A DNA stretch of 64,000 nucleotides from an endosymbiont of Galathealinum brachiosum (GTDB lineage: Bacteria; Pseudomonadota; Gammaproteobacteria; SZUA-229), in the NCBI GenBank assembly GCA_003349885.1, contig QFXC01000007.1, forward strand, positions 197,475 through 261,474, written 5' to 3'. Position 1 is the stretch's first letter. Every line of letters starts with the position of its first letter. The translations under genes and the position numbers were made by a program. Shown here piece after piece: positions 47,601-58,215 of this stretch. The notes beneath the pieces are model-generated. The model did not search any database and had not been told where the DNA came from. It was given only the letters and a program-made list of their open reading frames with translations.

Positions 47601-47708
47601 CCACTAGCCACAGTCGTGGTTTTTGGGTTGTCATTTTCATTACTGGTATCTTTAATACTTATCCCCATGCTGTATTTACTTGTTCATAAGAAGGAATCGT
47701 TAACTTGA
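44613..47708 (+). CDS. RND efflux pump, AcrB/HAE1-type inner-membrane subunit
   Basis: 1031 residues with the RND plan: TM1 near residue 20, a large periplasmic loop, a TM2-6 cluster (about 340-500, with GGLALGIGLLVDNTIVMLEN carrying the charged TM4 residues), TM7, a second periplasmic loop, and TM8-12 (about 870-1020). It exports a hydrophobic or amphiphilic substrate by proton antiport; substrate unknown. It overlaps both neighbours by four bases (adaptor upstream, phosphopantetheinyl transferase downstream), so the three genes are one unit. Confidence 0.92.
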   Translation: MSKLQRTGGLANWSIQRPIAVIMLSLTVLVIGLFSFDRLNINLLPDIIYPNVNIRILEPGTPAKVMEDKFTRQLEEQLAITEDAIRVQSDTSEGRSAVNLIFPYGTDIDRALQDASTRLDRAKRFLPQTAEPAVIYKRDPSQLPVMELIVSSSTRSSVELRSWVDYEFSKWFLNIEGVASTEVGGGLVREIQVIIDQEKLAAAGYKIADIKQLLQNENQDISSGVLYMDTHKLSARTEGRFDSIETISNLPLNTSPLNSSEKNLILSDIAQIIDAHQDEELRIRLNQQPGIKLTIQKQPDTNTIDVADRLHQQIEWFKTQNLLPSDIQIETVDDQSVYVKHALNNASYAAISGALLAMLVVYLFLRDIRRTLIVATAIPLAIFITFLIMSLNDISLNIMSLGGLALGIGLLVDNTIVMLENISRHQMLGKTPDIAASNAAAEVTSAITASTTTNLVAVLPFLFIGGLIGLLFSELIITLSAAIIASLVVALTLIPALGAKIQAPVDQKKNTFFDTLKQNYKKVLTFLLPHSLLIFSLFSIVLILSSMQLLDAKNSFFPTMDEGKVSISISTEPGTRLSELDKTLQIIEKLVLQQPEVSTAFVSSGGFVFGRSQFQKSNRGSISVQLKPLSKRNNISSSNWVKKTNKKIKKLQLAGYKVRMRVKGVRGIHTSHGDDDFSLRIQGSEIEVLTEIAETIIEKIRLIPELKNLSHSYEEQSNELVIKVKRQRAADLNISTEDIGTALQLALNGQVATEYIEGDREYDIRLRLQRSEIKQLHDINNIIISLQQGEAIRLFDVADISISPAPSIIKRDNQLRINEISASVNSDVDYQQLIERVFDIVNEMPIPDGYIVYDGGTLDTLKESSSTSYILLALAVFLVFVVMTVQYESLTNPVIIILGVPFTLIGVYLAVEFALDGRLSMPARLGIIMLAGIVVNNAIVLVEQIEICRQQGMEKVNAVLEAAMLRLRPILMTSLTSVFGMLPLALGLSEGSEMLKPLATVVVFGLSFSLLVSLILIPMLYLLVHKKESLT

Positions 47709-48442
47709 GCGATTGGTATAATCAGGATTCATATACAGAACTTGCTGAAAATGATATTCACATATGGCTCAATTACCTGAATGTTCATGAAGCCAGAATA
47801 AAGCACCTCTACCCGCTTCTATCCAATAAAGAAAAAGAACGTAGCGAACGATTTAAGTTTTATAAACACCGTAAAGCATTCATAGCTTCTCATGGTTTTA
47901 TGCAAATGGTGCTTTCATATTACATTGATGCATCTGCAGGTGAAATTGAGTTTACTCAAACAGAGTTGGGGAAACCCTCACTCATTGAAAAACAGAATTC
48001 TAATAACATCCAATTTAACTTAAGTCATTCAGGCAATATTGCGATACTTGCTGTGTGTAAACAACATGCTTTGGGAGTAGATATTGAATACGCTGAAAGA
48101 AAAATAGAATGGCAGGGTATTAGCAAACGGTTTTTTACTCCAAATGAGCAATCACAACTTTTTAAATTACACGAATCAGCTCAAAGAGATGCTTTTTTCC
48201 AGGTCTGGACGCGTAAAGAAGCGCATATGAAAGTAACAGGTCAGGGTTTATCTCTGGCACCATCGCATTTTGAAGTCACTGTTCCACCGTCACCCGCCGA
48301 GTTTATTGGCAATATGAAAACAGTAGACAATCATTATTACAAAATGAAAGATATCAGGTTGCCAGACATGTTTAAAGATTACTTCGCCTGTCTATCTGCT
48401 GACTTTGATTTTGACAACATTACCCAGTTCATACACTCCTGA
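47705..48442 (+). CDS. 4'-Phosphopantetheinyl transferase (Sfp/HetI type)
   Basis: 245 residues starting at TTG, whose TTGA overlaps the pump stop codon. The two signature motifs are present: LGVDIEYAER (Mg ligands D126 and E128) and the VWTRKEAHMK segment (W168, K171, E172). FNLSHSG near residue 108 is also typical. The enzyme moves phosphopantetheine from CoA to a carrier protein. Sfp-type enzymes commonly serve secondary-metabolite or polyunsaturated fatty acid synthases, none of which is in the window. Coupling with an RND pump is unusual. Confidence 0.92.
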   Translation: MSDWYNQDSYTELAENDIHIWLNYLNVHEARIKHLYPLLSNKEKERSERFKFYKHRKAFIASHGFMQMVLSYYIDASAGEIEFTQTELGKPSLIEKQNSNNIQFNLSHSGNIAILAVCKQHALGVDIEYAERKIEWQGISKRFFTPNEQSQLFKLHESAQRDAFFQVWTRKEAHMKVTGQGLSLAPSHFEVTVPPSPAEFIGNMKTVDNHYYKMKDIRLPDMFKDYFACLSADFDFDNITQFIHS

Positions 48443-48586: not shown

Positions 48587-49864
48587 ATGATTAATAAGAA
48601 TATTCTTATTTTCATCATATTCATTATCAGCTCTAAAACTTATGCCATAGATATATTAACTGGACAGGACAGTCTGGAATTTCATGGTTATTTTCGCGGA
48701 GGTCTGGGATCAAGCGAATCAGGTGCAACACAGGCAAAATTTCAGGCACCCGGGGCACGCGCAAAATATCGCTTAGGCAATGAACCTGAAACCAATATGG
48801 AGTTGCAGCTAACTTACACTTACGACATGAAAGAACCTGAAAATGAAAACAGCCATGTTCAGGGTATTATTATGCTTGATGGTTTTAAACATCACGGTGA
48901 GAGCAATAGTTTTACAGTAGACAATCTTGCTCAGGGTTATTTGAGTTTTAATAATTTTTTTAACAATGAAATAAAACTTTGGGTCGGGCGTCGTTATTAT
49001 GATAGAAAATCTATCCATATTATGAACCATTACTGGCTTAATCCCGGACAACGCTCACAGGCTGGAGCTGGCATTGAAGATATAAATACAGGTAGTGGAA
49101 AATTAGATATTGCCCTGTTCCGTTATGAAGATGATTTTGATATCAACGGAACATCTCACTTAATAAACAGCACAAGCATTGATACTCGATGGCATGATCT
49201 AAACATAAATGATAATTTAAAGTTAACACTCTGGGCCGGATTGTCTCTACGTCATGCAAATGATGATCTCAATTATGAAGATAAATCAGGATATGGCCTG
49301 GGTGGATGGTTAGATCATAAACATTTAAATATAAAAAACACCTCTGTCATTATTTACCAGACAGGATCTGCAATCACGCAGGCAGACTTTAACCCTAACC
49401 CTATTCGTGAAGATAAGGGCTGGGAGCTTGATAACGCAACAGCTCTTGAAATAAGTAATACATTAACTTACGAGTCGCTTCCAGATCACTCTATACAATG
49501 GACCTTGCTCTATCGCCATGAAGATCATGGCTTTACTGAAAACACCGATTTCAGTTGGTACAGCACAGGTGCAAGACCCATTTTTTATTTCAGTAAACAC
49601 ATAAACCTGGCATTTGAAGCCGGAATTGATTATGTCGATGACGAAGTTAATAATCGCAATGGAACATTAACAAAACTCAGTACTGTATTACAGATTTCGG
49701 CTGATAGAGGACTAAAAAGTCGGCCCGTACTACGTTTTTTCGTTACGCTTGCTGAATGGAGTGATGAGCTGAAAGGGCTTATCGGTCATTTTCCTGGAAA
49801 TGCACCCTATGCTAACGATACCCAGGGCTGGACGGTTGGAGCTCAAGCTGAAGTATGGTGGTAA
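48587..49864 (+). CDS. LamB/maltoporin-like outer-membrane porin
   Basis: 425 residues with a signal peptide (about 1-20). The first mature segment, LEFHGYFRGGLGSSESG followed by FQAPGARAKYRLGNE, and the end VLRFFVTLAEW...VGAQAEVWW match carbohydrate porins of the LamB family, which form 18-stranded trimeric barrels. The aromatic C-terminal end fits outer-membrane insertion. It is convergent, 18 bases apart, with a histidine kinase that is itself next to a sugar-type binding protein, suggesting sugar uptake or sensing. No sugar permease genes are present nearby. A good ribosome binding site (CTGGAGA) precedes the ATG. Confidence 0.85.
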   Translation: MINKNILIFIIFIISSKTYAIDILTGQDSLEFHGYFRGGLGSSESGATQAKFQAPGARAKYRLGNEPETNMELQLTYTYDMKEPENENSHVQGIIMLDGFKHHGESNSFTVDNLAQGYLSFNNFFNNEIKLWVGRRYYDRKSIHIMNHYWLNPGQRSQAGAGIEDINTGSGKLDIALFRYEDDFDINGTSHLINSTSIDTRWHDLNINDNLKLTLWAGLSLRHANDDLNYEDKSGYGLGGWLDHKHLNIKNTSVIIYQTGSAITQADFNPNPIREDKGWELDNATALEISNTLTYESLPDHSIQWTLLYRHEDHGFTENTDFSWYSTGARPIFYFSKHINLAFEAGIDYVDDEVNNRNGTLTKLSTVLQISADRGLKSRPVLRFFVTLAEWSDELKGLIGHFPGNAPYANDTQGWTVGAQAEVWW

Positions 49865-49882
49865 TTATAAAGTCACAGAGCA

Positions 49883-52306
49883 TTACACTAAACTGTCTAA
49901 ATCACAGGGCACTGTAAACCAGAAGATACTACCCACTCCTTCTTTACTTTCAACACCCACTTCTCCTCCCATATACTCTATCAATTGTTTACAGATAACC
50001 AGACCTATACCTGTACCATCTACGCTCGACCCATCTGCTCCAAGTCTTTCAAATGGAGTAAATAACTTATCAATACCTTCCTGAGAAATACCGAAACCGG
50101 TATCTATAATTTTAAATTTAATATGTGAATTATTTACATCTGAACAATTTATTATAACTTTTCCATTTGGCTTATTATATTTAATTGCATTAGTTACAAA
50201 GTTGATAAAAACCTGCTTTAATCTTGTTTCATCAGCCATAACAAATGGCTGTAGACAACTAGTCACTTCATCTTCAATACTAATATTCTGAGACTCTGCA
50301 TATAATTTAGTTAATTTTAAACTATCAATTAACACATCACATGCATTGATACTTTCAATTTTTAAAACAAGGCCGCCTGATTCAATACGTGCCAGATCCA
50401 GCACTTCATTTATTAACTCAAGGAGATGCCCGCCAGCTTCTAAAATCTCATTAATATTACTTGAAACATTCTCATCATCAATATTCGCAAGATCCATTTC
50501 AAGCAATTGAGCAAAGCCGAGTATCGCATTTAACGGAGTGCGTAATTCATGACTCATTTTTGAAAGAAATTCAGATTTTGCCTGATTTGCTTTTTCAGCA
50601 TACTCTTTAGCATTCAGGATTTCTTTTTCAAAATATTTACGTTCGGTAATATCATGATACGTGCCTAGTATACCAATAACTTTTCCATCAATATCATGCA
50701 AAGGAATTTTATTAGTTTCTACACAGGTTTCAGCTTCTGATGATGTTTCCTGAGTCTCCTGAATATTATACTCTGCCTGATCCGAGCCCATTACTCTACG
50801 ATCAGTAGCTACATAGAAATCTGATTCGTCTTTTGTCCAGGGCAGATCATAGTCTGTCTTCCCTATAATCTCTTCAGGGTACTGCAAACCACAAACATCT
50901 ATAAAATTTTTATTACATCCTAAATAGACAGAATTAATATCTTTCCAGAAAACATACTGAGGGATGTTATCCATTATAAGTTTAAGAAACTGTGTTGACT
51001 CTTCCAGTTTAATTTCAGCTTCAATTCTGTCTTTATTTTCACGCTGTAAGCTTTCATTAGAAGCAAGCAAGTCTCTTGTTCTTTCTTCTACACGTTTTTC
51101 AAGTGACTCCTGAGACGCAAGCAACTCCTTCTCTCTTAAATCAACTGTTTTAGCTGCAACATTAAATGCATCTGCAAGCACATTGATTTCATAACTCGTG
51201 CTTTCATCTGCATTAAATAACTCATAATCCCCTTTCTCTAAAGACCTCACCGATTTAACTAATTTATCGATTGGAGTGGTAATACTATAACGAGAAAAAA
51301 TCAAACCTATAGGCAATAAAGTCAAAATTGATATAAGAAACACAAAAAACATGACAATTATGGTGTCATTAATTTGCATATTAATAATATTTTTATTAAG
51401 ACTTGAAACCAGGTAAAATCTCTCACCACTAGAAAGAGGAATAGAATATGACTCTATCAAATAATTCTTATGTTTTATCCAGCTTGTTTTATGATCATCT
51501 TTATCATTAAAAAGCCCTGGCGAATACTTTAAACTTTCTAGCCTTGCACCATTTATATCATCACCGATATGCTTATTATTTGGTAAAATTATACTATGTT
51601 TTGCTCTGGAGCCTTTAGACAATACATTTAAAATTGATTCATTTATAGGATTAACCAGATATAAACTACCAATATTCTTTTTAGCACCGTCCAGATACAA
51701 CCTGTCCACACTAGATACTGCTTCCACACCAACTATTTCTTCATGGTAAGTATAAACACTCTCAGCTCTATTTACGGCTGGTTCAATATTAACCACCGGA
51801 AACAAATTATTATTTTCAGAAACTATCCATTCATTATCATTTTCAACCGATAATATATAAACAGGCTTTCCTGATTTGAATGATAAGATACCCATTGCAA
51901 CTTCACCAGGTCTCGAGAAAGCCGTTAACCAGCCATTTTTATCATAAACTCTTAATTCATATAAGCGTGTGGATTTAGCATAATCATATAATGCGTGAGC
52001 TATGTTTTTCTTCTCTTCATCGTAAATATTAGCCTGATATGTTTCTATTTCAGCATATTCAGAAATAAGATTAAGAGAGTTTATTACTGTATTCCGATTA
52101 GACAATTCTTCTGCATAAAATCGGGTATCTACCTGAATCTGATTAAAGCTACTCTTTGCTCGCTCATAATAACTTTTAAAATTTAATCGAGTTGAATTTT
52201 CATAATCATCTTTAATAATGAAACTTAAAGACAAACCCGCCAGTAACATACTTCCCCCCATTGAGAGAACAAGTAATAACATTATTTTTTTTCTGATCGT
52301 TTTCAT
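49883..52306 (-). CDS. Membrane HAMP-PAS histidine kinase
   Basis: 807 residues. TM1 (about 9-30) and TM2 (about 305-327) enclose a roughly 275-residue periplasmic sensor region. HAMP (about 328-380), a coiled coil (about 385-430) and a PAS/PAC domain (about 435-560, [18 protein letters not shown]) follow. HisKA has [15 protein letters not shown] and the HATPase has GTGIGL. There is no receiver, and no response regulator gene is adjacent. It lies 20 bases downstream of the sugar-type binding protein gene, a TorT-TorS or LuxP-LuxQ-like pairing. The kinase core resembles those of the 22-37 kb operon. Confidence 0.92.
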
Positions 52307-52326
52307 GTTTATTTAATTATATCTGA

Positions 52327-53283
52327 TTAAAATATAGGTGAAATTTTCTCAACATTTTCTTTAGTTATAATTTTACTTTCAACTCGAACAATTTTTGGTA
52401 CTGATTTGCCATGTAATATCCTGAGTACTATCTCTGCAGTTTCTTTGGCACAGGTCGGATAAACAAATGAAGCAGATTGATTTCCTGTTCTAATAGCTTC
52501 TCTTGCTTCATTTATATAATCAATGCCCACTATTAATTTCTCTTTAGGTGAGATACCCGCCTTTTTTAAAGCCAGTCGAGCACCTACCGCCATACTATCA
52601 CTCTGAGAATATATAGCATCAAAGGCTATATTTTCCATTATAGCGGCTTCAGTCTGGGTAATAGCATCTCCACGAAGGTAATTTGCATCTTTTATAGCAC
52701 TGACTTTAATTCCGGGATAGCGTTTTAAGCTATTCATAAAACCATCTGTCCTGGCTATCGCAGTTGTTGCTGTGGGTACACCGCGCAGCACAAGCACATT
52801 ACCTTTGCCTGATAACTTTTTCGAAATATATTCCCCGGCTTTTGTTGCAATCTGATAATCATCAGGCGCAATCAACGTAGTATAATCATCTGATGTAATA
52901 GTACGGGTAATTAATACGACAGGAATACCCTGTTTGTAGACTCGTGATATCGCGGGTGTGCTCGTTACCCCATTTCTCGGGCTTGTAATTAAGACATCCA
53001 CTTTTTGATAAGCCAGATTTTCAATATCCTGTATCTGTTTAGCACTATCCCCGCCTGCATCTGTAACTATTAACTTGATTTCAGGATGTTTTTTGAATTC
53101 CGTAATGAGCTCATTCACCTGCGCCCTTCTCCAGTCATTTGCAAGTGTATCCTGTGCAAAACCTACTATATATTGTTTATCATGCTCACTTTTGTCTGCA
53201 TGTGATAATTGTATATTGATACTAAAAATTATTGTTATTAATACGATACATTTTGTAAACAGTTTAAATAAATGTGCATTCAT
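52327..53283 (-). CDS. Sugar-type (RbsB-like) periplasmic binding protein
   Basis: 318 residues from the ATG at 53283, where a signal peptide begins; another in-frame ATG lies at 53316 and neither has a strong ribosome binding site. The fold is the type-1 periplasmic binding protein of the ribose/LuxP group: IVGFAQDTLANDWRRAQVNE, DAGGDSAKQIQDIENLAYQKVD (conserved DA...DIE pattern), VLVLRGVPTATTAIARTDGF and FDAIYSQSDSMAVGA. No ABC permease is present. It precedes the kinase gene by 20 bases, so it probably delivers ligand information to it. Confidence 0.88.
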   Translation of the reverse strand: MNAHLFKLFTKCIVLITIIFSINIQLSHADKSEHDKQYIVGFAQDTLANDWRRAQVNELITEFKKHPEIKLIVTDAGGDSAKQIQDIENLAYQKVDVLITSPRNGVTSTPAISRVYKQGIPVVLITRTITSDDYTTLIAPDDYQIATKAGEYISKKLSGKGNVLVLRGVPTATTAIARTDGFMNSLKRYPGIKVSAIKDANYLRGDAITQTEAAIMENIAFDAIYSQSDSMAVGARLALKKAGISPKEKLIVGIDYINEAREAIRTGNQSASFVYPTCAKETAEIVLRILHGKSVPKIVRVESKIITKENVEKISPIF

Positions 53284-53331
53284 AGGGTGTTGACTCTTTT
53301 TAATATTTTTATACATTTGCCAGTTTAGAGT

Positions 53332-53511
53332 TTAACCTAATATTGTCAAAACGACTATAACGACTACTGCAACCCCAATAAGTACTGAAATAATTACGGA
53401 CCAATGCTTTTCCTGTATTTCTTTTTTATCTTCTTCATTTACTATCTTATGTATATCATTTAAAACTTTACCCGCTACAAGCTGATCAATATTTTTCTTT
53501 AACTTATCCAT
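53332..53511 (-). CDS. Small single-pass membrane protein after the PP2C gene
   Basis: 59 residues, ATG at 53511 preceded by GAGGGTAAT. The N-terminal 36 residues are charged and helical (MDKLKKNIDQLVAGKVLNDI, ending in EEDKKEIQEKHW). The rest is one membrane helix (VIISVLIGVAVVVIVVLTIL) ending in Gly. It begins 9 bases after the phosphatase stop codon, so it is probably the third gene of the kinase-phosphatase operon. I recognise no family. Coding is supported by the ribosome binding site, the clean charge-then-helix layout and the tight spacing. Confidence 0.7.
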   Translation of the reverse strand: MDKLKKNIDQLVAGKVLNDIHKIVNEEDKKEIQEKHWSVIISVLIGVAVVVIVVLTILG

Positions 53512-53520
53512 ATTACCCTC

Positions 53521-54318
53521 TCAATTAGCCATCACTTCAGACTTAACTATTATCACCGATATATTATCTACTCCACCATTATCATTAGCTCTGGTTATCA
53601 ACTCATCAACCGCAGTTTCCAGACATTCATTCTTTTCTAAAATCAGCTTTATCTGCTCATCAGATACACAGTTAGTCAAACCATCAGAACATAATAAGTA
53701 AATTCTATTTTGATTTAATTCTAAACGATTTGCCTGTATATCAGGGTCATCTACCAAACCTATTGCCTGGCTAATCATGTGATGCATCGGCATAATTTCA
53801 AATTCATGCTGATTAATTTTTCCTTCGTTTAGCATTTTCTGCAACATAGTATGGTCTTCTGTTACCTGTTTAAGTAACTGCTGAGAATACTGATAACACC
53901 TTGAGTCACCTAAATGACTGATTGCTACTTCATTATCATGAATTAACATCGCAACAATTGTGGTTGCCATATTATTCAAATCAAAATTAAGTTTTTGTTG
54001 TTCCATTATATGCAGGTTTGCATCAGCAATAGCATGTTTAAGTGTAAGACTTAACCAGTCAGAACCATAACCTCCACCACTATGTGCCTGCAAAATAGCC
54101 TTTGCCACATATGCCTGTATAGTATCTACTGCTAGCTTACTGGCGACTTCGCCACCTTTATGCCCACCTACACCATCAGCCACAAGCAAGAGCACTGCAT
54201 TACTATGCTCAAACTCTGACATCAATATACTATCCTGATTTTGCTGACGTACCTTACCTCTATCTGTACCTCCTGCATAAACAATTGATGTGTTTTTATC
54301 CGTCATCATATTTTCCAT
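53521..54318 (-). CDS. PP2C-family Ser/Thr protein phosphatase
   Basis: 265 residues. The metal-binding motifs of bacterial PP2C enzymes are complete: GGTDRGKVRQQNQDS at the start, ADGVGGHKGGEVAS, HLGDSRCYQY, SDGLTNCV and DNISVIIV near the end. It should remove phosphate from Ser/Thr residues, most likely on targets of the kinase encoded 20 bases upstream. This kinase-phosphatase pairing is typical of PpkA/PppA or Stp/Stk systems. No type VI secretion genes are in the window. Confidence 0.93.
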   Translation of the reverse strand: MENMMTDKNTSIVYAGGTDRGKVRQQNQDSILMSEFEHSNAVLLLVADGVGGHKGGEVASKLAVDTIQAYVAKAILQAHSGGGYGSDWLSLTLKHAIADANLHIMEQQKLNFDLNNMATTIVAMLIHDNEVAISHLGDSRCYQYSQQLLKQVTEDHTMLQKMLNEGKINQHEFEIMPMHHMISQAIGLVDDPDIQANRLELNQNRIYLLCSDGLTNCVSDEQIKLILEKNECLETAVDELITRANDNGGVDNISVIIVKSEVMAN

Positions 54319-54338
54319 TAACCAGATAGTTTATATAA

Positions 54339-56717
54339 CTACTCTGATGGCATGCCTCTATTCAATGCATCTGCCATCTCAGCACCATTTGCATAACGCT
54401 TTTCAGATTTTTTCTGTAAAGCCTTATTGGTAATACGTGTTGCACTGGCAGGTAATTCAGGTCGAATTTCTCGAATAGATTTATGTTTTTCATTGGTAAT
54501 TTTATAAGCTAAATTACCCAGACTATCTGCATCAAACGGTAGATTACCTGTTAACAGTTGATACATGCTCACCCCAAGTGAATACAGATCAGCCTGCCCA
54601 TCCACTCGGGAACCGGTCATTTGTTCTGGCGCCATGTAAGACGGACTGCCCATAAAACTTCCTGTGCGGGTTTTCACCGAATCGGTAATGCGCGCAATAC
54701 CAAAATCAGTGATTTTAATTTGCCTGTCTTCCGGGTTATACATAATATTTCCCGGTTTTATATCACGGTGAACGATATTCTGACTATGGGCATAACCCAG
54801 AGCATCCGCTACTACCTGTAAAATTCGATACACTTCACGCACTGGTAATAATTTGTTCTTCTGAGTGAAATCAGAAAGTGGCACGCCTTCTACATAATCC
54901 ATTGCAATAAAGGCAAAACCATCTTCTTCACCCACATCATAAACTGTCACTATATTATTATGTGACAAACGGCCTGCTGCTTCTGCTTCACGAAAAAATC
55001 GTGACTTTACTGTTTTTAATTCTGTTTTATTAAACTGGGTATAATCAAGTGTCTTAATTGCAACCTTTCTATTTATTTTAGGATCCCTACCTAAATACAC
55101 CACGCCCATTGCACCACGCCCCAGTTCCTTTTCAATTTTATAACGTCCAAATTCTGGCATTTCCATATCAGGCATAACCAGTGTTTTCTGCGCCTGGGCA
55201 GGTGATAATATTTCTGTACGTGTTTCCGAAAAACCACTAAGAGATTTCAGTCGCTTATCTATATCTTTGTATTTCTTCTGTCGAATATTTATTTCTGAAT
55301 AAATCTGTAATGCCCTGTCATATTGGCGCTTACGTTCAAAACTAAGGCCTATTTCATATAAATCAGACAATACCTCTTCATTAGCCTGGCATTTAAGTAA
55401 ACTTGTAATAGCTGTCTCATAATCACCTTTTTGATATTGATAATGCCCCAATTGAAACCAGGCATCTGTTTGCTTCTGAGACAGGTCTTTTAATATGTCA
55501 TAACCAGACAGATAAACATAAACCGATATCTGGCCTATAAACATAAATAACAATAAGTTAATTGTCGGCCACCATACCCCGTTTAATATCAACAGCACAG
55601 GTTGAACTGATATGATTCCCAGTATAATAAATGCACCTAAAAACAAACCACTTGTTTTTGATAATAACGGCAACACCCATAACAGGTAGATACCAAGTAC
55701 ACACATAATGACGGGCAATAACCACCAGCTATATGCCGGCGTATGATAAACAGCACCCGCATCAATACTGCTTAGCGAGTCTGCCAACACCTGTAACTGA
55801 TGTTCGTCCTGACCAATTAGAACTATTTTATTTTTAAAGTACGATTTTGATTTTTTTTCTGCCATCTCTAAAGACAGTGAATTAATTCGTGTATGCCTAT
55901 TCGTAAGATCAGAGAAATAATTAAACACTTTTCCTGACAGACCTGTTTTTATTTTAAGCGTATCCAGTTTTATAAGGCCCGATTCATTCCAGAATAATTT
56001 TTTATTATTTTGATACTGGCTAAACAAAGCAAGACTCAGATCAGGTAATGTAAATGACCCATCATGGTCATACCATATTAACGATTTTTCACCTGACTCC
56101 TGATAATCGAAAGGGTATACACGATAAGGCAATTCAGTTTTAGTTAATCTGAAGGTTTTTTTCTGTGATAAAAACAGTGCAGGTATGTATTTGCGCCAAC
56201 CATCCTGGTAGATCAGTACTTCATTATAAGGAATGTTGTTTTGATGCTGAGCTGTATTTTTATATTGTGTGAGAAAGACATTCTGATTTTCTAACATCCA
56301 TGCCAGCTTATTACGCTCCCCTTCTGTTGGTTTCCAGTGAACGGTCTCTTCTACTTTCTTATCCTTGTTCTTTTCTTTTTGTTTTTTATTTTTCTTCTTT
56401 TCTGGAGGTTCCTGCTGAACATAATCCATCTGAGGAAAGTCATCTGTCAGCCAGACAATTTCCGCTGCTTTGGATTTGTCTAATTTACGTAATAAAAACC
56501 GGAAATCCTTAATACCCTGCGGTTTCTGCAGTTGAGATTCACTTAACTGAACAACACGCACACCACTGATTTCAGCCTGTGCGGGCAATAAATAACTGGC
56601 AAAGCGGAACATCTGGGCATCAAGCCAGCGAACAGTGCTATTTTGTGGCGACAACAAAGCCAGTAAAAAGCAAATTAAAATAAAAAGAGAAAAATAAAGT
56701 CTTCGATGCTGATTCAA
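54339..56717 (-). CDS. Membrane Ser/Thr protein kinase with CHASE2-like sensor
   Basis: 792 residues, with an unusual order for this kinase class. TM1 (about 7-23), a roughly 300-residue extracytoplasmic region of CHASE2 type containing a Lys/Glu-rich insert (about 108-128), and three membrane helices (about 335-410). TPR-like helices follow (about 415-500), then a C-terminal Hanks kinase (about 528-790). Kinase motifs are GRGAMGVVY, VAIKTL (Lys near 553), HRDIKPGN, DFGIAR and SPSYMAPEQ, so it should be active. The sensor probably detects an envelope signal. Operon with PP2C and the 59-residue protein. Confidence 0.92.
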   Translation of the reverse strand: MNQHRRLYFSLFILICFLLALLSPQNSTVRWLDAQMFRFASYLLPAQAEISGVRVVQLSESQLQKPQGIKDFRFLLRKLDKSKAAEIVWLTDDFPQMDYVQQEPPEKKKNKKQKEKNKDKKVEETVHWKPTEGERNKLAWMLENQNVFLTQYKNTAQHQNNIPYNEVLIYQDGWRKYIPALFLSQKKTFRLTKTELPYRVYPFDYQESGEKSLIWYDHDGSFTLPDLSLALFSQYQNNKKLFWNESGLIKLDTLKIKTGLSGKVFNYFSDLTNRHTRINSLSLEMAEKKSKSYFKNKIVLIGQDEHQLQVLADSLSSIDAGAVYHTPAYSWWLLPVIMCVLGIYLLWVLPLLSKTSGLFLGAFIILGIISVQPVLLILNGVWWPTINLLLFMFIGQISVYVYLSGYDILKDLSQKQTDAWFQLGHYQYQKGDYETAITSLLKCQANEEVLSDLYEIGLSFERKRQYDRALQIYSEINIRQKKYKDIDKRLKSLSGFSETRTEILSPAQAQKTLVMPDMEMPEFGRYKIEKELGRGAMGVVYLGRDPKINRKVAIKTLDYTQFNKTELKTVKSRFFREAEAAGRLSHNNIVTVYDVGEEDGFAFIAMDYVEGVPLSDFTQKNKLLPVREVYRILQVVADALGYAHSQNIVHRDIKPGNIMYNPEDRQIKITDFGIARITDSVKTRTGSFMGSPSYMAPEQMTGSRVDGQADLYSLGVSMYQLLTGNLPFDADSLGNLAYKITNEKHKSIREIRPELPASATRITNKALQKKSEKRYANGAEMADALNRGMPSE

Positions 56718-56863: not shown

Positions 56864-57595
56864 TTATTCAACAGCCGAGCCTACATCCAGTCGTTCAAAC
56901 CAGTTAAGAAAGTTCTGCACATCCTCACCTTTAAATATTCTTCCATGCTGTGGTGCCATGTACTCAATATCGAGCTTTCTAACTCTATTGATCCAGTCCT
57001 GCTTGGCTCTATTTGATGGCATCCAGCGTTGATGAAACATCTTCATCTTCCCAGTGTGTTCTTCAAAATCCTCTACATACATTGATGCACCGGGCGTCTC
57101 TAATGCGGCACCCACATCACCGCTCATTAAAACTTTAGCCTGAGGGTCATACACATGAAAGTTACCTGAAGAATGCAGATAATGCGCCGGAATAAACTGC
57201 AACTTTGCATTATTCAACACGATAGACAAACCATCATCAGGAATCGCATTATAATTAATATTATTTAAACCAAAATGACGAATGAAACTTTCCCATATCC
57301 ATGGTGCGTGAAGCGTTGCTTTTGGTAATGCTTCATCCCATAAGCCTAATGAAGAAATGATATCCGGATCCTGATGAGATGCAAAAATATCAACCAGATT
57401 TTCAATCTCTGTGTGCCTTAATACGGCAGCCAGCATAGATGAAAATATCTCTATACCTCCCGGATCCATTAAAAACGATTTATCTCCATCAACAATCATA
57501 TATTGATTTGTATCGATGATTTTATCTGGTTTATCCGGATCACGCCCAAATACGATCCATTGATGCCTGCCGTTATAAAAGATGGTAGATTTCAT
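56864..57595 (-). CDS. MBL-fold di-iron protein (ODP/flavodiiron-like)
   Basis: 243 residues, a metallo-beta-lactamase fold like the di-iron domain of flavodiiron proteins but with no flavodoxin domain. Flavodiiron enzymes have HxExDH; here the site reads HQDPDI (H74, D76, D78, then Ile in place of the last His). Further probable ligands are H141 in YLHSSGN, D160 in SGDVGA and H217 in PQHGRI. Stand-alone versions (ODP) act as oxygen or peroxide sensors for chemotaxis in spirochetes. It overlaps the chemotaxis-like gene upstream by one base, which supports a sensory role. Confidence 0.82.
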   Translation of the reverse strand: MKSTIFYNGRHQWIVFGRDPDKPDKIIDTNQYMIVDGDKSFLMDPGGIEIFSSMLAAVLRHTEIENLVDIFASHQDPDIISSLGLWDEALPKATLHAPWIWESFIRHFGLNNINYNAIPDDGLSIVLNNAKLQFIPAHYLHSSGNFHVYDPQAKVLMSGDVGAALETPGASMYVEDFEEHTGKMKMFHQRWMPSNRAKQDWINRVRKLDIEYMAPQHGRIFKGEDVQNFLNWFERLDVGSAVE

Positions 57596-58215
57596 TATTT
57601 TCCTGTCATTTTTGTAAGATCATCAAGATAGGTTTTACAGATTTTAATTTCACTTGTTATATCATCGCTACAGCCCTCAAGGTCATTTGCAATGGCAAAT
57701 AAATTGGTCTGATACTCACCCGCTCTTGATGCTTCAGTTCTGGAATTTGTTACGATAACTTTAGCAGCTCGAATACCCTGAGAAATGTCATCAAATAAAG
57801 CAGACAGATATTTACAGTCATCTGCCTGAGATTTCTTTAATTCGCTTATTTTTATATGCAATTTTTCAATTAATGCTGAAATTTCTCTGGCTTTAGATTC
57901 ACTTTCCAGCTTTTCAATTGCCTTGGTAAAATTATTAAGCGCATTATTTGTTCTTTTTTCATTAACCGCAGTAATAGAAAACTTCAATGCAACTGCATTT
58001 ATTTTTGATGAGATCGAGATAGTGTCTCGAGCCATATCACTTATAAACTCGGTAATAGGTTTAAAACCGGCGGTTTTATCCCCACCCCTGATCGATATGC
58101 ATTTAGCATTACTTGAACTGATATACATTACTTTTGTAATTTCAAGCATTCGATAAAGTCTGCCCGCCAGTAATGCGGAAATAACGAAAGGAGGTTGTAG
58201 TTCTATTTTTGCCAT
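57595..58215 (-). CDS. Chemotaxis-receptor-like soluble helical protein
   Basis: 206 residues, no signal peptide or membrane helix. After about 55 residues the protein is almost wholly helical (IKISELKKSQADDCKYLSAL, ending in EIKICKTYLDDLTKM), resembling the coiled-coil of methyl-accepting chemotaxis proteins but shorter and without a recognisable signalling tip (no EVxxL hairpin motif seen). It overlaps the di-iron protein gene at its stop, so the two are probably partners. Possibly a signal transducer for the ODP-like sensor. Family assignment is tentative. Confidence 0.6.
   Translation of the reverse strand: MAKIELQPPFVISALLAGRLYRMLEITKVMYISSSNAKCISIRGGDKTAGFKPITEFISDMARDTISISSKINAVALKFSITAVNEKRTNNALNNFTKAIEKLESESKAREISALIEKLHIKISELKKSQADDCKYLSALFDDISQGIRAAKVIVTNSRTEASRAGEYQTNLFAIANDLEGCSDDITSEIKICKTYLDDLTKMTGK

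Follow-up and report, generated by a model that had tools for sequence, protein, structure and literature searches.

A 59-residue membrane protein gene behind the kinase and PP2C phosphatase genes of a gammaproteobacterial CHASE2-type module

The window analysed here, a stretch of 64,000 nucleotides, carries on its minus strand a Ser/Thr kinase gene (56717–54339), a PP2C phosphatase gene (54318–53521) and, directly behind them, a small open frame (53511–53332) that we term SM. This arrangement raises two questions. First, is SM a translated gene? Second, if it is, what part might a single-pass membrane protein of 59 residues take in a kinase–phosphatase switch? The features concerned are the following.

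53332..53511 (−): SM, gene for a 59-residue single-pass membrane protein (open frame; genus conservation with dN < dS; coding-score shuffle test)
53338..53400 (−): SM residues 38–58, one predicted transmembrane helix (hydropathy; helix pLDDT 90–93)
53401..53511 (−): SM residues 1–37, charged, predicted helical and probably cytoplasmic head (composition and model; topology inferred)
53440..53478 (−): SM residues 12–24, conserved core VAxKVxxDIHKIV (invariant columns of the four-row alignment; common to the g167 proteins described below)
53516..53520 (−): GAGGG ribosome-binding site of SM, with the ATG 4 bases on (sequence)
53521..54318 (−): soluble Stp1/IreP-type PP2C Ser/Thr phosphatase (NF033484; PP2C_2, 1.3e-17)
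54339..56717 (−): Ser/Thr kinase with CHASE2-like sensor and TTG start (Pfam; start alignment)
54390..55142 (−): kinase catalytic domain, residues 526–776 (Pkinase PF00069, 1.6e-55)
56340..56411 (−): Lys/Glu-rich sensor loop, residues 103–126 (orthologue alignment; variable)

Coding status of SM

SM is separated from the PP2C gene by 9 bases (53512–53520). Its head, residues 1–37, contains eight Lys/Arg and eight Asp/Glu residues and, in the window's copy, no Ser, Thr or Tyr, and is followed by a hydrophobic stretch at residues 39–57, with a 19-residue mean hydropathy of 3.35 from residue 39. The coordinates, strand, 59-residue frame, 9-base gap, GAGGG site, charged head and single hydrophobic stretch given by the first-pass annotation were thus all confirmed from the sequence. 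The AlphaFold2 model of SM is a single helix from residue 2 to 58 (mean pLDDT 75.5, pTM 0.38), in which only the membrane part is confident, the pLDDT being 59–75 for the head against 90–93 for the membrane helix. Most likely the head lies in the cytoplasm and the short C-terminal end outside. SM matches no family above cut-off in Pfam or NCBIfam, FHA included, and has no match in PHROGs at E < 0.005 or in PADLOC at E < 0.01.

When 54 genomes of the order, each belonging to family f1, were searched with a profile, strong matches to SM were confined to the window's genus (G000, G002, G003 and G004; E values from 1e-30 to 3e-33), with a partial match in G001 (1e-7) and three weak ones in other f1 genera (9e-4 to 5e-3) that fall far under the genus matches. 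A single SM sequence also gave weak matches in several f1 genomes (E values of 0.07–0.7); those examined in frame (L007, L009, L014 and L015) were rejected, being a different small protein that is alike only around the membrane helix. The frame is intact in four of the five species of the genus, and across these copies 20 positions are invariant, of which 18 lie in residues 1–35. Over codons 1–40, dN is 0.10–0.30 and dS 0.36–2.6 in five of the six sequence pairs (dS was not computable in the sixth), and in every one of the six, changes are most frequent at the third codon position. Scored in frame over 43 codons, the substitutions give 784, whereas 3000 column shuffles of the alignment average 361 (sd 67) and never reach that value; only one of the 3000 is stop-free in all four sequences. 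The other five frames over the same alignment score 234–575 and contain 5 to 21 stops.

The conservation of the frame in relatives, which the first-pass annotation had named as one check to make, is therefore borne out by the four intact copies and the shuffle test. The fifth copy, in G001 (L054, 5204–5294), has two one-base deletions and early stops that disrupt the frame, and the kinase (788 residues) and PP2C (264 residues) frames beside it are open; the gene may have been lost, or the assembly may be wrong at this point. The gap between PP2C and SM, 9 bases in the window, is 12 in G002 and G004, whereas the two genes of G003 overlap by 8 bases at the PP2C stop and the SM start; this spacing suggests that SM is translationally coupled to PP2C. 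On account of the codon-position bias, a dN well below dS, the shuffle test, the conservation in the genus and the overlap in G003, SM is a true, translated gene by every sequence criterion applied. A chance frame was rejected on the dN/dS and shuffle tests, and the broader notion of an untranslated frame, kept by chance or for the sake of the RNA, is hardly credible: just four intact SM sequences exist in what was searched, but the same coding tests, the ribosome-binding site and protein-level homologues in another family all speak against it.

The kinase–phosphatase module and its third slot

The kinase and PP2C assignments of the first-pass annotation are right, the former by its PF00069 match and the latter by NCBIfam NF033484, which it passes with 236.9 bits against a cut-off of 230. 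The two genes are 20 bases apart in the window. The PP2C has no 19-residue hydropathy window above 1.08 and hence no membrane segment of its own. The kinase consists of an N-terminal membrane helix, an extracytoplasmic domain, about three further membrane helices and a C-terminal output domain; windows with a hydropathy above 1.6 begin near residues 7, 334 and 360, with a weaker one near 385, and weak TPR matches follow right behind the last membrane helix, at about residues 415–476. The CHASE2 match at residues 32–310 scores 20.9 bits in the window's kinase, under the curated cut-off of 26.3, and reaches E ≤ 0.01, with a best value of 3.9e-7, in nine of the 15 orthologue rows, among which there is one duplicate. 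The TTG start is kept in nine close orthologues, the window's included. An AlphaFold2 model of the kinase built from four close sequences was uninformative (mean pLDDT 34.3).

This kinase had been called unusual for its N-terminal sensor and Lys/Glu-rich insert, a description that does not hold. A CHASE2 domain at the N-terminus with a C-terminal kinase domain is the usual order, since it is found in a paralogue of the same genome (CHASE2 at 17–392, kinase at 581–832) and agrees with a survey of cyanobacterial kinases, the available part of which places additional domains mostly C-terminally, with the exception of FHA and CHASE2 (PMC2176072). The Lys/Glu-rich insert is a loop whose length and composition vary among orthologues. 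A related sensor region was found in 69 of 369 gammaproteobacterial genomes.

SM had also been described as the end of the operon. It does lie directly behind PP2C, but on the same strand, after a 15-base gap, genes for a periplasmic binding protein and a histidine kinase come next, so that the transcript need not end at SM in the window. Between SM and a phosphopantetheinyl-transferase-like gene (47705–48442), the window carries at 48587–53316 a LamB porin (+), a PAS-histidine kinase (−) and a ribose-type periplasmic binding protein (−). Because the convergent transferase gene directly adjoins the module in G001, G003 and G004, these sugar-sensing genes look like an insertion in the lineage of the window. 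On the other side of the module, at 57595–58215, lies a gene for a 206-residue coiled-coil-like protein of no clear family, whose stop shares one base with the start of an ODP-family (PF19583) gene; among the 20 kinase orthologue loci of f1, both genes are present in G001 only.

These 20 loci all contain the kinase (incomplete in G022 and G030). PP2C follows it in eight (G001–G004, G006, G008, G009 and G018) and an intact SM in three (G002, G003 and G004), counts that include contigs ending too soon past the kinase to judge, such as G007 and G032. In G006, G008, G009 and G018 the PP2C gene stands without SM; G006 has no room for it, the interval from PP2C to the convergent neighbour being 27 bases. 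Close kinase orthologues, with 64–66% identity, occur in another gammaproteobacterial family (L168 and L169, in G424 and G432), which suggests that the kinase gene has moved from one family to another; neither PP2C nor SM was found behind the kinase in the stretches examined there.

What occupies the slot behind PP2C in more distant operons? A set of 23 distant-kinase loci was assembled from the own-genome paralogue, G297 and G392 (the next-best outside f1) and 20 of 25 further loci, the omitted ones being G088, G101, G211, G233 and G239. PP2C lies directly behind the kinase in 13 of the 23, and in 12 of these 13 an FHA gene follows; the FHA domain was verified by Pfam in each of the three genes tested. 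In the window's genus the slot holds SM and not FHA, and the module is thus no kinase–PP2C–FHA triad. A membrane protein of 59 residues in the third slot of a kinase–PP2C module, where FHA stands elsewhere, is new here. Among the titles covered on CHASE2 with Ser/Thr kinases, PP2C or FHA, none concerns such an operon with a small membrane protein. Since an FHA gene occupies it in related operons, the third slot is a plausible location for an accessory part.

Relatives of SM in other families

Once widened with two weak matches (profile A6), the SM profile picked up further small proteins in five genomes, which belong to three other families; the core of one of these proteins, in G206, is VAHKVMLDIHQQVE. 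Family f154, searched with profile A8, gave seven SM-like proteins, all of genus g167 (7 of 41 genomes; L148 and L153–L158), which are unannotated, single-pass and 77–82 residues long. They are not mutually independent, because the profile with which they were found already contained G206. In a stricter test, a profile made from the four SM sequences alone was run against segment-wise shuffles (n = 2000 per target): it matches all seven g167 proteins at 17.8–30.8 bits, scores that no shuffle of the respective protein attains. Alignment of SM with the g167 proteins by hhalign gives an E value of 4.4e-9. The likeness comprises the head motif VAxKVxxDIxxxV and a C-terminal helix; the g167 proteins differ from SM in being longer and in their neighbours, with no kinase or phosphatase gene found nearby. 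In six of the seven loci the gene adjoins what we take, from its sequence, to be a LysE-like gene, and on the other side, again in six of seven, what is presumably a gene for a small Cys-rich protein.

A looser and more distant set, the 'ALRRIR' group, scores 13–21 bits with the SM-only profile, without any of 2000 shuffles reaching the real score for five of its six members; the sixth, L151, failed (2.6 bits, 116 of 2000 shuffles). Its place in the SM family is tentative. One frame examined in G299 (L166) showed nothing SM-like. Judged by profile matches to the conserved head, which the SM-only profile, its shuffles and hhalign bear out, SM belongs to a family of short single-pass proteins that is rare and has no name, and to which no family model matches above cut-off. 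The family was found in 8 genomes of a 369-genome sample of the class, two of them of the window's genus, and in a 200-genome sample of the phylum in the window's own genome only; plasmids searched with a g167 protein and viral contigs searched with the PP2C gave no match.

None of 15 loci of SM-family matches, mostly examined over 1.5 kb to each side, showed a kinase, PP2C or FHA gene. Any link of SM to the kinase is therefore local to the window's genus, and the SM head cannot be specific for the kinase–PP2C pair across the family. All eight class-sample genomes with an SM relative lie among the 69 with the related kinase. This co-occurrence probably reflects clade composition and is not counted as evidence, because in f154 the related kinase is present in 37 of 41 genomes and an SM relative in seven (by profile A8; the looser profile A9 adds an eighth, G316) and because the matches come from just five families.

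Possible roles of SM and comparison with known systems

We tentatively propose, from sequence and gene order, that SM is a recruited membrane-docking adaptor for the phosphatase or the kinase, to which it is predicted to bind. A member of the SM family would in one genus have joined a CHASE2-type Ser/Thr kinase/PP2C module as its third cistron, taking the slot held in related operons by an FHA-domain phosphothreonine reader. Its helical head would lie at the membrane face, beside the juxtamembrane TPR-like helices of the kinase, and may dock the soluble PP2C or, less likely, tune the kinase. Consistent with this proposal, SM is a real gene with short or overlapping spacing to PP2C, the phosphatase has no membrane segment and the kinase has about four with a TPR-like region right behind the last, the third slot is filled by FHA in 12 of 13 related loci with PP2C, and the SM-only profile matches the g167 proteins. 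A membrane anchor, the other role offered by the first-pass annotation, is likewise possible. Against the docking and anchor readings stand the G001 locus, where SM is broken while its two partners are open, the four f1 loci with PP2C and without SM, and the SM homologues of other families, whose surroundings, as far as searched, contain no kinase, PP2C or FHA gene. An amphipathic docking face is also unsupported, as the head's hydrophobic moment does not stand out from shuffles (183–455 of 2000 reach the observed value).

A possible, though doubtful, alternative is that SM is a passenger, a small head-plus-helix protein which landed behind PP2C in the ancestor of the genus and performs a membrane task of its own family, unrelated to phosphorylation. 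It accords with the relatives, which adjoin the LysE-like gene (g167) or other genes (f1, f2 and f94) with no kinase found nearby, with the broken copy in G001, and with the unequal distribution of kinase and SM relatives in f154; harder to reconcile with it is that four of the five species of the genus keep SM in the same slot, with short or overlapping spacing and a dN well below dS. Another reading, on which PP2C is not the partner and SM packs against the membrane bundle of the kinase and tunes its activity as MgrB does with PhoQ, we consider unlikely. The size and single-pass layout of SM resemble those of MgrB (PMC8404706, in its available part), and the kinase, with its N-terminal and about three later membrane helices, would offer such a bundle. 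Yet the conservation of SM sits in the head and not in the membrane helix, and SM homologues occur without an adjoining kinase.

It is a good deal less probable still that SM founds a family of membrane adaptors whose 'VAxKVxxDIHxxV' head plugs into different operons and which, in the window's genus, replaced the FHA reader, so that the third part of the switch would be membrane docking and not phosphothreonine reading. That the kinase phosphorylates SM as a membrane-bound substrate, as the first-pass annotation suggested and as its operon position alone might indicate, is very unlikely and was rejected after a census of the four intact copies, because the head lacks Ser, Thr and Tyr in three of them (the window's, G002 and G003; G004 has one unconserved Ser) and the whole G002 protein has none.

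An FHA third gene recurs in gammaproteobacterial kinase–phosphatase operons, and the window's genus offers a simple system in which to ask about a dedicated adaptor: is a soluble bacterial PP2C brought to a membrane kinase by such a protein? If SM proves unrelated to the kinase, it will serve as a warning against inferring the function of small genes from operon position.

Three known systems come closest. In the MgrB-type regulators, the available parts of the sources describe proteins of tens of residues, single-pass and encoded apart from the kinase on which they may act (PMC8404706, PMC2789325); SM resembles them in size and layout. MgrB, of 47 residues, inhibits the histidine kinase PhoQ (PMC8404706), a kinase of another type, whereas the conservation of SM lies in its charged head. 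The PpkA–PppA–Fha pathway of the type VI secretion system, as far as these sources describe it, likewise combines an inner-membrane Ser/Thr kinase, a phosphatase and a third accessory component (PMC12607579, PMC3953482, PMC5995506), and differs in that the window has no FHA gene directly behind PP2C. The third system is that of the CHASE2 kinase–PP2C–FHA operons of Gammaproteobacteria, that of the own-genome paralogue included, which share the N-terminal sensor, the membrane helices, the C-terminal catalytic domain and a PP2C gene at once behind, and in which the third gene encodes an FHA protein where the window encodes a membrane protein of 59 residues.
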